NCBI RefSeq assembly: GCF_013403565.1
Contig: NZ_CP058627.1
Span: 434,001-498,000, forward strand
Length of the DNA: 64,000 bases
Source of the DNA: Chitinibacter bivalviorum
Lineage (GTDB): Bacteria > Pseudomonadota > Gammaproteobacteria > Burkholderiales > Chitinibacteraceae
Reading direction: 5' to 3'
Part shown: one piece after another, positions 3,580 through 11,663 of the stretch
How positions within the stretch are numbered: the first letter of the stretch is position 1
Layout of the letters: every line of letters begins with the position of its first letter
The notes under the pieces: model-generated
The model's input: only the letters and a program-made list of their open reading frames with translations
Database searches by the model: none
What the model was told of the DNA's origin: nothing
Made by a program: the position numbers and the translations under genes

Positions 3580-4143
3580 ATGATGAAAGCAATCCAATAT
3601 TTGATCATCGCGGCGGCCAGTTTTGGCCTGCTCGGATGCGCAGCGATGAATGAGTCCGAATGCCGAGTCGGCGATTGGTATGGTACTGGCTTACGCGATG
3701 GTCAATGGGGGGCACAAAACCGCATTGCTGATTATGCCGAGTCGTGTCAAAAGCTGGGCATAACGCCAAATCTAAATGAATATACGCGTGGGCGTAATCA
3801 AGGCTTGCGGGCGTATTGCACGCCAGATAGTGGCTATCGTGCGGGGCGAGCTGGTAATAGCTATGGCAATGTTTGCCCATCTGATTTGCAAGCGGGGTTT
3901 TTGTCGGGCTATGAGCGCGGCTATGCGCGTTATCGCTTGGAGCGCGATATCGATCAGTATCAAAATCAATTGATTAATTACCGCAGTGATCGTAAAAAGC
4001 TGGAAGATAAAATCGCCAAAGCGGCCACTGAGGACGAGCGTCGCAAATTGCTGCGCGATCTGGATCGATTATCGCGCCAGCAAATGTACTCACAGCAACA
4101 ACTGGATCAATTGCTGTTTCAACAAGCCAATTGGCGCGATTAA
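3580..4143 (+). CDS. DUF2799 lipoprotein
   Basis: A 187-residue lipoprotein. ATG 3580 was chosen over an upstream TTG because it directly precedes a signal peptide (MMKAIQYLIIAAASFGLLGC) with lipobox LLGC, and GGGAG lies about 12 bases upstream. The mature part has the DUF2799 features: an early W-Y-G-x-G-x-x-D-G motif, Y-x-x-G-R-x-x-G-L and repeated Gly/Tyr turns. A charged coiled-coil tail follows (about residues 125-185). DUF2799 proteins are small envelope proteins without a defined function. The stop codon overlaps that of rsmJ on the other strand by 4 bases, so the two genes converge with no spacer. Confidence 0.8.
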   Translation: MMKAIQYLIIAAASFGLLGCAAMNESECRVGDWYGTGLRDGQWGAQNRIADYAESCQKLGITPNLNEYTRGRNQGLRAYCTPDSGYRAGRAGNSYGNVCPSDLQAGFLSGYERGYARYRLERDIDQYQNQLINYRSDRKKLEDKIAKAATEDERRKLLRDLDRLSRQQMYSQQQLDQLLFQQANWRD

Positions 4144-4916
4144 GCTGCGGGTTTGAGCGGTAAATAGCCATCAAAGCGCGTGCTTTCACCCTCAAGCGCA
4201 AAGTCGGGCTTAACGCCTGCCAAATGTGGCGCATGACGCGGGCGTTTAACTGTAATGCGTTTGAGCGCAATTTGCCGTGCGGGGGCAAGTAGTGCGTCGG
4301 CGTCTTCATCGCCACCAATCAAAGTCTGAAATGCGGCCATGTCTTTTTTCGACTTGGCGCGTTTACCTGGCTCGGGGAACATCGGGTCGAGATACACCAC
4401 GTCAAATTGCTGCTCCGCCAGCGGCCCCAAGCCTTGGGCGCGCTCAGCTAGCCAGCTTCGGCCATCGCCAAAATGCAAACACATGCGGGCGGCAATGTCG
4501 GCAGTGGAGGTATCTTGCTGTGCGCGGCGTAGACCATCCTTGAGTAGCAGATACGCCACTGGGGTACGTTCGATTAAGGTGACTTCGCACCCTAGTGTAG
4601 CCAAGACAAATCCATCGCGGCCCAATCCCGCTGTGGCATCGAGGATGCGGGGTAGATAGCCGCTTTTAATACCCACCGCTTTGGCGACGGGCTGGCCTCG
4701 GCCGCCGCCAAATTGCCGCCGATGCGCTGCGGCGCCAGTGACAAAATCCACAAACACCGGCGCATTTTCGTTTACAGCCCGCAAAGCTAAATGCTCGTCT
4801 TCCCAATGCAAATAATGCGTGGCATCGCTAGGCGGGGTATCCCACAGTGATAAGCCAATGGATTGGGCTTGGGCGCAAAGCTCTGGGGGGGTATGGGTAA
4901 CAAGCAGACCGATCAT
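4140..4916 (-). CDS. rsmJ: 16S rRNA (guanine1516-N2)-methyltransferase RsmJ
   Basis: A class I SAM-dependent methyltransferase of 258 residues. Motif I is LDATAGLGRDGFVLATLG (about residues 91-108) and the catalytic loop is VVYLDPMFPEPGKRAKSKK (about 173-191), both characteristic of RsmJ (YhiQ), which methylates N2 of G1516 in 16S rRNA. The FGGGRGQPVAKAVG segment before motif I is also typical. The length matches the family (about 250). It converges with the DUF2799 gene (4-base overlap) and follows mtfA by a single base on the same strand, so mtfA-rsmJ are likely co-transcribed. Confidence 0.9.
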   Translation of the reverse strand: MIGLLVTHTPPELCAQAQSIGLSLWDTPPSDATHYLHWEDEHLALRAVNENAPVFVDFVTGAAAHRRQFGGGRGQPVAKAVGIKSGYLPRILDATAGLGRDGFVLATLGCEVTLIERTPVAYLLLKDGLRRAQQDTSTADIAARMCLHFGDGRSWLAERAQGLGPLAEQQFDVVYLDPMFPEPGKRAKSKKDMAAFQTLIGGDEDADALLAPARQIALKRITVKRPRHAPHLAGVKPDFALEGESTRFDGYLPLKPAA

Positions 4917-4917
4917 A

Positions 4918-5724
4918 TTAATGTACGAGTGTTTCTTCCAAATAAGAGCCGTAGCCTACACGAGGTAGACGTGAAATGGGGTCTTGGCGATAAAAGAGTT
5001 TGAGCTGCTCGTAGACGGCAGGGTAGGTATCGTTGAGCTTGTGGGGGTCTTCAAAAAAAACTTCGCTGCATACGGCAAAACATTCGGCCGGATTGGTGGC
5101 GGCATACAAATCGATCGGGCTGTATTCGCCAGTCCGAGCGCGATGTTGCAGATCGATAAAGGCATGGCTGAAGGCGGCTTTCCAGTCGCTGGGTTTCATG
5201 CCGTAATGCAGCGGCGGATCGCCATTGGGGTAGCCATTGCGCATATCGAGTTTATGCGCCAATTCATGAATGACCACATTCCAGCCATCTTGCCAGGGCG
5301 CTTCCATGACATCGTGCCACGAAAACAAAACAGGCCCGTCACTGCGAGCTTGCCCAGCTAATACTTGCTCGCCTTCATGAATCAGCCCATGGTGGTCGCG
5401 CTGGCGCGTTTTGCTGACAAATTGGCTGGGGTAAATAATGATTTCTTTCCAATCGTCGTAGGCGTCAAATCCCAGATTCAAAATGGGGAGCGCGGCCTGT
5501 ACGGCGAGCACCACACGCATTGGGTCGCTAAATTCTATGCCTTTGGTGGGCGAGATGGCTTTGGTATGCAAAAACCAAGCCGCAATTTGCTTGAGCCGTT
5601 TGAGTTCATCGGCACTCAAGCCTTGCAGGATAGGCATCGTGGTGAGCGGTAGCCACAATTCATCGCTGATCGGGTGACGATTGAGCCACCAGTTGCGATA
5701 CATCTCTTGAATAAAACGAATCAT
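4918..5724 (-). CDS. mtfA: Zinc-dependent peptidase MtfA (M90)
   Basis: A 268-residue cytosolic metallopeptidase. The zinc-binding HELAH motif is at residues 153-157 (NVVIHELAHKLDMRNG) and the third ligand is expected in the NPAECFAVCSEVFFEDP segment, both hallmarks of MtfA. In E. coli MtfA binds the repressor Mlc and thereby affects ptsG regulation; whether that partner exists here is not visible. The length and N-terminal WL-x-P region match the family. It lies immediately upstream of rsmJ. The upstream 220 bases separate it from the divergent chemoreceptor gene. Confidence 0.9.
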   Translation of the reverse strand: MIRFIQEMYRNWWLNRHPISDELWLPLTTMPILQGLSADELKRLKQIAAWFLHTKAISPTKGIEFSDPMRVVLAVQAALPILNLGFDAYDDWKEIIIYPSQFVSKTRQRDHHGLIHEGEQVLAGQARSDGPVLFSWHDVMEAPWQDGWNVVIHELAHKLDMRNGYPNGDPPLHYGMKPSDWKAAFSHAFIDLQHRARTGEYSPIDLYAATNPAECFAVCSEVFFEDPHKLNDTYPAVYEQLKLFYRQDPISRLPRVGYGSYLEETLVH

Positions 5725-5798: not shown

Positions 5799-5944
5799 TA
5801 AAGCGACGCGTCTGAATTCTTGCACACAATCTGTCACAAATACGTAACGTGTAAGAATCAATAGCATAATTAGTTTATGCTAATAAGTACTGCTGTCATG
5901 CGTTTGATCAATATTCCGACCTTACTTTTACTAGGTGACACCCT

Positions 5945-8293
5945 ATGTCGATTCAAGCTCGTATTCTACTTATCGCGGGTGCGATTTATTCCGTAAGTAT
6001 GATTATTCTACTTTTCATCGTGGGGGGGCGCGCTGATAGTGCGGGCGGTGATCTATTGCTGACCGTTCTTTCATTGGGCGTGTTGGGTTTGGGGGCGTTG
6101 ATTGCGAGCTTGTTTTGGGCGATGAAAACTTCATTTGGCCAATTGCAATTTGTCCGTGATGCAATTCGCCAACAGGCGGGCGAACATGGTGATTTAACCT
6201 TGCGCTTACCTGTTTCTGGCGGTGAAGTGGGGGAGATTTCTCAGGCCTATAACCTTTTTGTAAGCAAGTTTCAAAACGTACTGCGTGATGTGCAGCGCGA
6301 AATGGAAGGCTTGGCGATTAGCCTGCATGAGCTGAGCTCGGTGACGGCTCAAATGGCCAAAGATACGCGCAGCCAATCCGATTTTGCCGCCTCATCCGCC
6401 GCAACCGTTGAAGAAATCACCGTCAGTATTAATCATATTGCCGATAGCGCGCGCGATATGGATCATGTCGCGAGCGAAACCCAACGCATTTCTGGCGACA
6501 GTGCCGATGCGGTTCAGCGCGTTTCCGAAGAGGTGGGTCAAGTTTCGAATGCCATGGTTTCTTTGGGCAAAACCATGGATGGTTTGGGTGAGCGTTCAGT
6601 CGAAATCAGCGGCATTATTGGCGTGATTAAAGACATTGCCGATCAAACCAATCTATTGGCACTCAATGCGGCGATTGAAGCGGCCCGTGCGGGTGAGCAA
6701 GGGCGTGGTTTTGCTGTTGTGGCAGATGAAGTGCGCAAACTGGCTGAGCGTACGGCACAGGCAACGGTTGAAATCGCGCGCAAAATCGAATCGGTCGGTA
6801 AAGATACGGATCGCGCAGTCAGCAATATGTCGACCACCTCCGAGCGCGTGACGCAGAGTGTGACTTTGGCCGATGATGCACGCACGCATATGCTCGACAT
6901 TCGCGAACGCATGGATCATGTGGTGAGCTTGGTGCGTCAAATTGCCGACTCCACCACCGAGCAATCTTCGGCTGCGATGTCGATGGCGACCTCCGCCGAG
7001 CAAATCAATGTGATGACCATGGCGACGGACTCAGCCTTGCAGCAGGCGAGCAAAACCATTGTGTCACTTGATGATAGAGCCAAACGCCTATTGCAGATCG
7101 TCGGTAGCTACAAACTGGCGGATATTGAAGTTCTGCACTGGTGGCAGGCGGCCAGCGAGGCCAAGGCCGTTTCTGAAATCAAAGCCTTGCTCAATCAGCG
7201 TGATCACCATTGGGTGGATGCACAAATCGGCGGCGATAATCCGATGGGCTCGCTCAAACAGCGTGTCATGGCGGGTCATCCTCCGACTGCCGCTGCCATT
7301 GGCGGGGTCAAAATCCAAAACTGGGCGCGTGATGGCGTTTTGGCCGATTTAACCGATATTGCACACCGTGAAAACTGGTCTAGCATTTTGCCTGCGGTGC
7401 TCGACAAAATGATGCAAGCCAGCGGCAAATATGTGGCTGTTCCGCTGGGTGTGGCGCGCGTGAATATGATGTGGATTAACGCTGCGCTATTTAAGCGCAC
7501 AGGCCAGAATGTACCTAAAACATGGGATGAATTCTTCACCGTTGCAGAGCGATTTAAGCAAGCGGGCATTCCTATGATCGCCATTGGCGAACAACACTGG
7601 CAAATTGCTACGATTTTTGAAGCCTTGGCCTTGGGGCAAGGCGGTGCCGATTTTTATGTGAATGCGTTTAGCAAACTCGACCAAAGCGCTTTAACAGGCC
7701 CCGCAATGATTCGGGCACTGGAAACGCTACGCCGGATGAAGCCGTATTGCACGCCTGATAATAATAGCCGCGACTGGAATCTGGCGACTGCTGATGTGGT
7801 CAATGGCCGCGCTGCATTGCAAATTATGGGCGACTGGTCAAAAGGTGAATTTGTGCAAGCAGGGAAAGTACAGGGCAGCGATTATTTGTGCATCCCATCA
7901 CCAACCCTGAATGGCGAATACAGTTTTGCTGCCGATACCTTGACCATGTTCAAATTGTCGGATGAGAAAGCGATCAAGGCTCAAAATGATTTTGTGAGTC
8001 TGCTCATGAGCCAAGAAGGACAGGAAGTATTTAACTTGTATAAAGGGAATATTCCAGCCCGTACCGACGTGAATCTGAGCCGTTACGATGAGTATGCAAA
8101 ACAATCTGCACGTGACTTTTCGGGTGCTGCCAGCAAGGGCGTACTGGTGCCTTCTTGGGCGCATAATATGGCGGTTCAAGATGATGTGCGGATGGCGTGG
8201 TTTGATATTGTCGAAGCCTTCTGGCGCAATGCCAATATGACGCCACAAGATGCTGCACGTCGTTTTGCTGATGCAGCGCGAGCTAGTCATTAA
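5945..8293 (+). CDS. Methyl-accepting chemotaxis protein fused to a sugar-ABC-type solute-binding domain
   Basis: A 782-residue fusion. Residues 7-26 and about 36-60 are two membrane segments joined by a loop of only about ten residues, so there is no real periplasmic sensor. A HAMP-like region follows (to about 115), then the MCP coiled coil with the conserved tip around residue 231 ([40 protein letters not shown] in outline). From about residue 393 to the end is a complete family 1 extracellular sugar-binding protein resembling glucose/mannose ABC receptors: LHWW near its start, [27 protein letters not shown]. It lacks its own signal peptide. Because the MCP tip must face the cytoplasm to meet CheA/CheW, the binding domain should also be cytoplasmic. 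AGGTGA precedes the ATG. A terminator follows directly. Confidence 0.9.
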
Positions 8294-8308
8294 GATGGTT
8301 TTGCTAAT

Positions 8309-8337
8309 AAAAAAGGCTGCCTAGGCAGCCTTTTTTA
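8309..8337. terminator. Bidirectional intrinsic terminator
   Basis: AAAGGCTGC, a CTAG loop, GCAGCCTTT, with A and T runs on either side. It sits between the convergent chemoreceptor and glycosyltransferase genes and can serve both. Confidence 0.88.
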
Positions 8338-8352
8338 TTTGATCAGCATGAA

Positions 8353-10700: not shown

Positions 10701-11663
10701 ATGCACTTACTGGCTCGACAACTGAATGCGCTTGATCGTGCTGAATTAACGCCGACGAACTTGATTGAGCTAGACCCTGATTTGGCGACGTCGATCGCAT
10801 TGCGCTGGGGCGAAGCCGCTTTGTCCGATGAATTATTAGCGCTGCTCATGAGCGATGCGGCGCAAACCAGTGGTGAGATGGGCCATCGCTTTACGCCAAC
10901 CGTGGTGCGTGAGCTTATGCGCTTATCAACTGCTTATGCCGATTTACTACCTCAAATTGCGGCAACAAAAGACATTTGGGGAAATGAACGCGAAGTGAGT
11001 GAGCTTCCAAAAGGTTATTCCGATGGGTATATTCGTGAACGCAATAATAGTTATTCATCTAAATCAAATACATTGGGTGGGTATGTAGACGCCGCGCCTA
11101 CAATTATGCCGGTGCGCGATGACGAGAAAGAATGGACTCCACTGTTGCAAGCGTGTTTTGCGGGTCGACTGGATCGTGTTGAAAAATTGATTGAGCAGGG
11201 CGCCCACATTCACTGGGCTGATAAAGATGGTTATCAGGCGCTGCATTTAGCGGCATTACAAGGCTATGTTTCAATTGTTGCTTTATTGCTCGAGCATGGT
11301 GCAGATGCCAATGCAATCAGTCGTCGCTTTGCTACTGCGCTGCACTTAGCGGCCGCTCGCGGGCATCTGGAGGTGGTTGATGCTCTGCTCGACGCTGGGG
11401 TTAGTATCAACCATGCTAAACATGATGGTTGGACTGCGCTGCATAAAGCGGTCGCCAGCGGGCATGATGAGGTCGTTGTACGTTTACTAAGGGCGGGGGC
11501 TAATCCGATGTTGGAGACCAAAGCCGGGCAAACCGCGATTGCCTTGGTCCCTAGTCATAAAATGAGAATGGCTGAGTTGCTCGAACACGCGATACCCAAA
11601 CGTAAACTGCAGGTTTTGGCTGGCCGTGAAATTGTGTCGCAAGCTTGGATTGATTGGAATTGA
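10701..11663 (+). CDS. Ankyrin-repeat protein
   Basis: A 320-residue soluble protein. The N-terminal 140 residues are an unrecognised helical region (LARQLNALDRAELTP...) ending in a Ser/Asn/Gly-rich linker. Residues about 145-290 hold four ankyrin repeats, seen as EWTPLLQACFAGRLDRVEKLIEQGA, YQALHLAALQGY, ATALHLAAARGHLEVVDALLDAG and WTALHKAVASGHDEVVVRLLRAGA. Such repeats bind other proteins; the partner is unknown. There is no signal peptide or membrane segment. A weak hairpin (GCTTGC/GCAAGC, 11673-11704) lies between it and the convergent TPR gene. Confidence 0.85.
   Translation: MHLLARQLNALDRAELTPTNLIELDPDLATSIALRWGEAALSDELLALLMSDAAQTSGEMGHRFTPTVVRELMRLSTAYADLLPQIAATKDIWGNEREVSELPKGYSDGYIRERNNSYSSKSNTLGGYVDAAPTIMPVRDDEKEWTPLLQACFAGRLDRVEKLIEQGAHIHWADKDGYQALHLAALQGYVSIVALLLEHGADANAISRRFATALHLAAARGHLEVVDALLDAGVSINHAKHDGWTALHKAVASGHDEVVVRLLRAGANPMLETKAGQTAIALVPSHKMRMAELLEHAIPKRKLQVLAGREIVSQAWIDWN

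Follow-up and report, generated by a model that had tools for sequence, protein, structure and literature searches.

How a chemoreceptor comes to end in what resembles an intact transport-type binding protein, and on which side of the membrane that protein then works, is the question raised by one gene of Chitinibacter bivalviorum in the window, by which we mean the whole analysed stretch of 64,000 nucleotides. MCP tips must meet CheA/CheW in the cytoplasm, and the binding protein of an ABC transporter classically works outside it; an earlier note on this DNA proposed that the two are united in one frame. The frame starts with ATG and runs uninterrupted over 782 amino acids without any internal stop, and both Pfam domains are present in it: MCPsignal at residues 195-356 (E 1.7e-45, 155.4 bits against a curated cut-off of 34.6) and SBP_bac_1 at residues 420-693 (E 3.8e-22, 80.1 bits against a cut-off of 26). 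That two separate genes were misread as one is ruled out, as no stop lies within the frame, and an assembly error or frameshift is likewise ruled out, as fused frames recur in many genomes. Taking all lines of evidence together, we consider it likely that the protein is a membrane-anchored chemoreceptor for an intracellular ligand, which arose by a single fusion.

Table 1. Features of the fused chemoreceptor gene and its surroundings; positions refer to the window, residues to the encoded protein.
Feature	Position	Strand	Basis or remark
Ribosome-binding-like AGGTGA, 6 bases before ATG	5933..5938	+	read from sequence
Fused chemoreceptor gene, 782 aa	5945..8293	+	intact frame; Pfam MCPsignal + SBP_bac_1
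Membrane helix 1, residues 3-28	5951..6028	+	model helix 3-28; hydropathy
Loop of about 7 residues (29-35)	6029..6049	+	model; loop slot in 58 fused proteins
Membrane helix 2, residues 36-58	6050..6118	+	hydropathy; model helix 36-78
HAMP-like stretch, residues 59-108, under the Pfam cut-off in the query	6119..6268	+	Pfam
MCP signalling hairpin, helices 94-248 and 250-387	6224..7105	+	Pfam, NCBIfam, model
Junction of about 6 residues (388-393)	7106..7123	+	model
Glucose-binding-protein (GBP) type solute-binding domain, residues 394-781	7124..8287	+	Pfam; 5dvf match; Foldseek
Ala-Ile-Gly, residues 451-453, at the GBP Q90 and K92 sites	7295..7303	+	alignment
Ala, residue 662, at the GBP N301 site	7928..7930	+	alignment
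Tyr, residue 717; in most unfused relatives the second Cys of a conserved pair	8093..8095	+	alignment
Terminator-like hairpin between the fused gene and its convergent neighbour	8306..8339	.	-20.5 kcal/mol, z -4.0

In the encoded protein (the query), hydropathy windows above 1.2 begin only at residues 1-21 and 30-47, which are the two membrane segments, and at residues 497-498 within the binding domain. The two segments with their tiny loop, as the earlier note had described them, also appear in the structure model, which was calculated for a single chain with moderate confidence (mean pLDDT 80.9, pTM 0.58), and across 58 fused proteins the loop slot (query residues 28-37) holds only 0-10 residues. 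A loop of about seven residues is too small for a periplasmic sensor domain. The HAMP domain claimed next to it could be retained only in part: a HAMP-like stretch is present, but its score of 16.7 bits stays under the Pfam cut-off of 25, which is passed by the second paralogue of the same genome (32.7 bits). The signalling hairpin, by contrast with such a partial match, is complete as claimed, and at its tip 27 of the 31 residues at 234-264 are invariant across 38 aligned fused proteins. For methylation sites, a strict consensus gave no matches and a relaxed pattern gave one, at residue 336. Query residues 38-390 align to positions 204-557 of the 558 in the NCBIfam model of P. aeruginosa CtpM (NF058645), which indicates that the binding domain starts just after the end of a complete receptor. 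With 178.8 bits against a family cut-off of 900 the query is far from being a CtpM itself, and it differs from CtpM in having no periplasmic ligand domain and in continuing 390 residues further.

These 390 residues form a complete binding domain of the glucose type. Aligned to 5dvf, the glucose-binding protein of P. putida, residues 391-782 match at 387 of their 392 positions (E 4.8e-99), and a Foldseek comparison placed unliganded 5dvf among the closest folds to the predicted domain (TM by target length 0.95, rmsd 1.6, 42% identity), with galactose-bound 5dvj at TM 0.90 and rmsd 2.8. The domain directly follows the MCP helix, and neither a linker nor a signal sequence nor a third membrane helix lies ahead of it, in agreement with the earlier observation that a signal peptide is absent at this place.

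A sensor-type domain that follows the MCP signalling domain is the layout of the C-terminal-ligand-domain chemoreceptors, a poorly characterised class with at least 17 Pfam domain types (PMC7390727), and SBP Pfam domains are also noted to serve as sensors in receptors of both the cytosolic and the transmembrane kind (PMC9602780). The earlier judgement that the architecture is not known to be described therefore stands for this particular fusion, of which we found no description in the accessible portions of the literature on architecture (including PMC7390727, PMC9602780 and PMC8547431; the supplementary type list of PMC7390727 may include it), but it does not stand for the class, which is already known. 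CZB-domain receptors resemble the query in that a C-terminal sensor domain follows the MCP signalling domain (PMC7390727). What the query carries at this place is a two-lobed, transport-type binding protein of about 390 residues. The CZB domain, in contrast, is a small zinc-binding domain. A functional likeness is offered by P. aeruginosa GltB, a glucose-binding protein that feeds signalling receptors by binding the sensor domains of GtrS and PctA (PMC7927077). In that system two proteins meet outside the cell, whereas the query is one chain with its binding part apparently inside.

We favour a cytoplasmic position of the binding domain for reasons that come from comparing the sequences of fused and unfused proteins, and they give further backing to the inside location claimed before, the topology of the earlier note being borne out as well. 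Over 58 fused proteins, Lys and Arg residues together average 1.3 ahead of helix 1, 0.14 within the loop and 2.3 past helix 2, which favours both ends being inside. A pair of cysteines at the places of query residues 649 and 717 occurs in 37 of 40 unfused relatives, with the remaining three having neither, and in 87 of the 91 unfused rows of a second, overlapping set, which suggests that it may form a disulphide in the unfused proteins. None of 60 fused rows (including two duplicates, L105 = P0015 and L114 = P0031) has both cysteines; in a set of 76 fused proteins, every one has Tyr at position 717, and 649 is still Cys in 27 of them. Exactly two cysteines are found in the domain of 38 of the 40 unfused relatives. 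Fused rows range from two (16 of 60) to six, and the additional ones at 602 (50 of 60) and 534 (36 of 60) are absent from the 37 unfused proteins compared. Loss of the pair together with extra cysteines fits a reducing compartment. As all fused proteins derive from one event and form one clade, their shared traits are not independent, and the loss at 717 counts once, while the scattered cysteine gains are more independent. It also has to be weighed that four of the 91 unfused rows lack the pair as well, two of them with Tyr at both places, and that 16 of the 60 fused rows have gained no cysteine beyond a count of two.

The opposite placement, with the binding domain outside the cell via an inverted or unusual topology, could appeal to the origin of the domain. 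By a simple hydropathy rule, used instead of a signal-peptide program, 84 of 88 unfused full proteins have a hydrophobic, signal-like stretch ahead of the domain, and none of 76 fused ones does (residues 350-394), so that the home of the domain is the periplasm. It could also appeal to the fused homologue P0087, whose hairpin contains a hydropathy peak of 1.67. In some distant fused members only one membrane window is clear by the threshold used. We nevertheless regard an outside position as highly improbable. It is established that MCP tips require contact with CheA/CheW in the cytoplasm, hydropathy in the query never rises above 1.2 from the second helix to the start of the domain, a region where the other 75 fused proteins reach 1.42 at most, and both the charge pattern and the loss of the cysteine pair stand against it.

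Twelve residues of ppGBP contact glucose (PMC7927077), and nine of these are identical in the query, which thus lacks the full glucose-contact set by the replacement of Q90, K92 and N301. The fused proteins have the fold in common with the periplasmic GtsA/GltB/ppGBP proteins (5dvf, 5dvj) and retain five of their glucose contacts, W36, W270, D303, K339 and H379, in 76 of 76 members, but they differ from them by the missing signal sequence and cysteine pair, by the attached MCP and by just these three replacements. Q90A and N301A occur in all 76, and the K92 site is Gly in 52, Ala in 20 and Arg in 4. The W250 site holds Trp in 65 and Phe in 11, and W35, E41 and G68 vary, W35 being replaced in 55 of 76. 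Of 91 unfused rows, altered sisters included, 79 retain Q90, 66 retain K92 and 69 retain N301. With three polar side chains gone, the site should be wider and less polar at this point, and this would argue for a ligand bulkier than glucose. Literature searches yielded nothing on the sugar atoms that are touched by Q90, K92 and N301.

That the domain senses free intracellular glucose, and so reports uptake via an ABC transporter, would accord with the closest solved structures being glucose-binding proteins and with the nine identical contact residues. In the same genome, moreover, an unfused GBP-type gene (locus L102) is followed by genes that, judged by their sequences, are permease-like and ABC ATPase-like. 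With three glucose-contact residues replaced in every fused member and W35 in most of them, at positions where the unfused rows mostly keep Q90, K92 and N301, we think that plain glucose is an unlikely ligand.

The same replacements, together with the drift at W35, E41 and G68, could also mean that the domain has given up ligand binding and serves, at the receptor's base, as a scaffold or docking site for proteins. The five contact residues that are invariant in all 76 members are hard to reconcile with such a role, as is the pocket as a whole, whose 12 columns show more conservation than sets of domain columns drawn at random (p 0.0066, with rows unweighted for kinship). The low dN/dS of the binding domain points in the same direction. 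Against five genomes of the genus, this ratio was 0.022-0.074 for the binding domain and 0.008-0.049 for the hairpin, and 0.17-0.21 for the helices and HAMP region in the four computable genomes; since dS is saturated (mostly above 1), only the ranking of these ratios is useful. Evolution is fastest in the N-terminal part, as would befit an anchor, and strong constraint is seen in the binding domain. A mere scaffold thus appears quite improbable to us.

The best reading of the pocket is therefore a putative sensor of some intracellular sugar derivative rather than of plain glucose, and the proposal of the earlier note that the fused protein senses an internal sugar or sugar phosphate remains the most plausible one. 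A more specific version, which we put forward tentatively, is that the binding protein moved to the cytoplasm with a pocket enlarged for a bulkier derivative, for example GlcNAc, GlcNAc-6-phosphate or GlcN-6-phosphate, and lets the cell steer by its internal metabolic state rather than by the concentration outside; the candidate ligand would then plausibly be a product of chitin breakdown, either an amino sugar or a sugar phosphate. Chitinibacteraceae are known for chitin use, and the GlcNAc-PTS (TIGR01998) scores over its cut-off in 40 of 43 genomes of the family, which makes GlcNAc or its phosphate attractive, if by a weak correlation. The three genomes without this PTS also have no receptor, but they belong to one genus, and five others have the PTS without the receptor, so that the correlation says little. 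The variation at W35, E41 and G68 may mean that members differ in their ligand, or that some bind none. In four fused receptors (P0030, P0032, P0048 and P0049), the pocket loop PTAAANRIINIGKW replaces another 14-residue loop, which may hint at a different ligand within the family.

The fusion is widespread in its family. A protein search returned at least 80 matches from 7997 scored candidates, and both MCPsignal and SBP_bac_1, the combination for which a domain search had been suggested, are found in 60 of the 80 proteins among the matches listed. The nearest named proteins among these matches are from Chitinibacter (92% over the binding domain), for which reason the family of the compared genomes is taken as Chitinibacteraceae; the other named genera presumably belong to it as well. 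Frames of fused length were counted at 51 places, spread over 35 of the 43 family genomes; the count took open frames of at least 775 amino acids that hold the SBP domain, with the MCP half checked directly in part. In two of the 51 the matched span contains a stop, and both of these matches reach the last residue of the query. Sixteen genomes have two fused copies, and the eight genomes without a fused frame comprise three of one genus and five of another. The genome of C. bivalviorum itself encodes one more fused copy, with 55% identity in the domain, three matching unfused relatives and 31 MCP matches over the Pfam cut-off, and a CheA-type H-kinase_dim match is present in 43 of 43 family genomes.

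Beyond the family, no confirmed fused copy was found in 399 sampled genomes of the order, and at the strict threshold none beyond the own genome in 369 genomes of the class; these searches used few candidates per genome and thresholds of 1e-40 and 1e-120, so that more distant fusions may have escaped them. Three long frames were rejected as fusions, as only SBP domains were found in them (G037 with 1224, G289 with 874 and G068 with 775 amino acids), and the longer frame of G037, being without an MCP domain, was excluded from the count of 51. A search with a distant member yielded 18 further fused proteins, of which one carries an organism name, Catenovulum sp. SM1970, a gammaproteobacterium. 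The architecture is thus mostly, but not only, a trait of Chitinibacteraceae. A partial fused protein labelled as from a Psychromonas MAG (P0076; 55% to the query) resembles the second Chitinibacteraceae group, loop included, and may reflect mis-binning or transfer.

The gene neighbourhood names no ligand, as across the compared loci none of the gene families next to the receptor is shared by more than two, and a conserved operon partner was rejected on the same ground. Two genes on each side recur in one locus (L104, from the genus to which Deefgea tanakiae belongs), and a relative of the gene at 10701-11663 lies in another (L103). The divergent neighbour at 4918-5724 (minus strand) is a Peptidase_M90 protein, presumably of the MtfA type, a family that Pfam describes as a glucose-regulated metallo-peptidase; it recurs beside the receptor in L104 and in no other compared locus. 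Elsewhere in the own genome, a group II intron reverse transcriptase/maturase gene (L102:5278-6645) lies between a response-regulator-like gene and the unfused GBP-type gene. In the genome G001, an unfused GBP-type protein adjoins an ordinary MCP of 540 amino acids on the same strand (L143:1819-3441 and 3682-4929), as expected of the usual two-protein arrangement.

Both halves of the protein were used to trace its origin, with near-identical rows thinned before the trees were calculated. In trees of the SBP half the fused proteins form one clade (support 100/98 and 100/100); for the 100/100 tree, 30 of 125 rows were dropped, including P0157, P0159, P0181 and P0182, which have no cysteine pair. 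In a first tree of the MCP half, for which 12 rows with stops were skipped, the fused rows were not one clade (2 changes), and six rows sat on very long branches and were taken for misread frames. The hairpins were then re-extracted by their tip motif, and three loci were excluded for want of a clean hairpin; after this, L191 and L207 fell on short branches, and 33 fused rows formed one clade against 47 unfused MCP rows from five family genomes (100/100). One locus whose frame had been misread, giving seven stops (L004), was left out of later counts, and L119 and P0101 appear to be the same gene. The simplest reading of these trees is that a single fusion event took place.

Seven unfused rows (Jeongeupia and others; two are apparently one gene) group with the fused proteins at 100/100, and the nearest unfused row is placed with 31/16 in one SBP tree, while a Jeongeupia-type pair is nearest at 98/82 in the other. 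All seven sisters retain the cysteine pair and have Gly at position 92; their position 90 is Ala, Thr or Met and position 301 is Ala or Asp. As these unfused sisters have a similarly altered pocket, the pocket change probably preceded the fusion. No permease gene was seen beside such sisters in two loci (L129:4230-5540 and L144:3629-4906). In both of these a LysR-type gene lies on one side of the unfused binding-protein gene; the other neighbour is ftsK in L129, and in L144 it is a long frame that matches no Pfam family. We infer the following order of events: an exported binding protein, with its pocket already shifted from glucose, would have been joined to an MCP, the signal sequence and the paired cysteines would then have been lost, and the fused receptor would later have been duplicated in some lineages.

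As to how such a receptor could work, the two N-terminal helices would serve as an anchor only, and the MCP hairpin would extend inward as far as CheA/CheW. The binding domain, attached straight to the C-terminal helix that returns toward the membrane, would take up a small sugar-type molecule in the cytoplasm. Its motion from an open to a closed clamp could shift the end of that helix near the membrane, and this shift could alter the hairpin and hence control of the CheA kinase and methylation. The sequences themselves show the architecture and its conservation, the single fusion clade, the changes in the pocket and the pattern of cysteines. The cytoplasmic location, ligand binding, the nature of the ligand, domain closure and signalling are what we infer here, and with a single-chain model at pTM 0.58 the signalling geometry is a guess.

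The label "extracellular solute-binding protein", which most named members carry among the matches listed, would mislead for these proteins. A transporter binding protein has seemingly been recruited, pocket included, as an internal sensor, with a traceable history that probably leads from a pocket change in the exported protein via the fusion to the loss of the paired cysteines. The probable position of the sensor inside the cell suggests that a sugar-like metabolite of the cytoplasm guides the movement of these bacteria. If the domain does bind a metabolite, the receptor would offer a direct handle on metabolism-dependent chemotaxis, and it would be a natural model of a two-lobed binding protein that is wired to a receptor helix from the C-terminal side.
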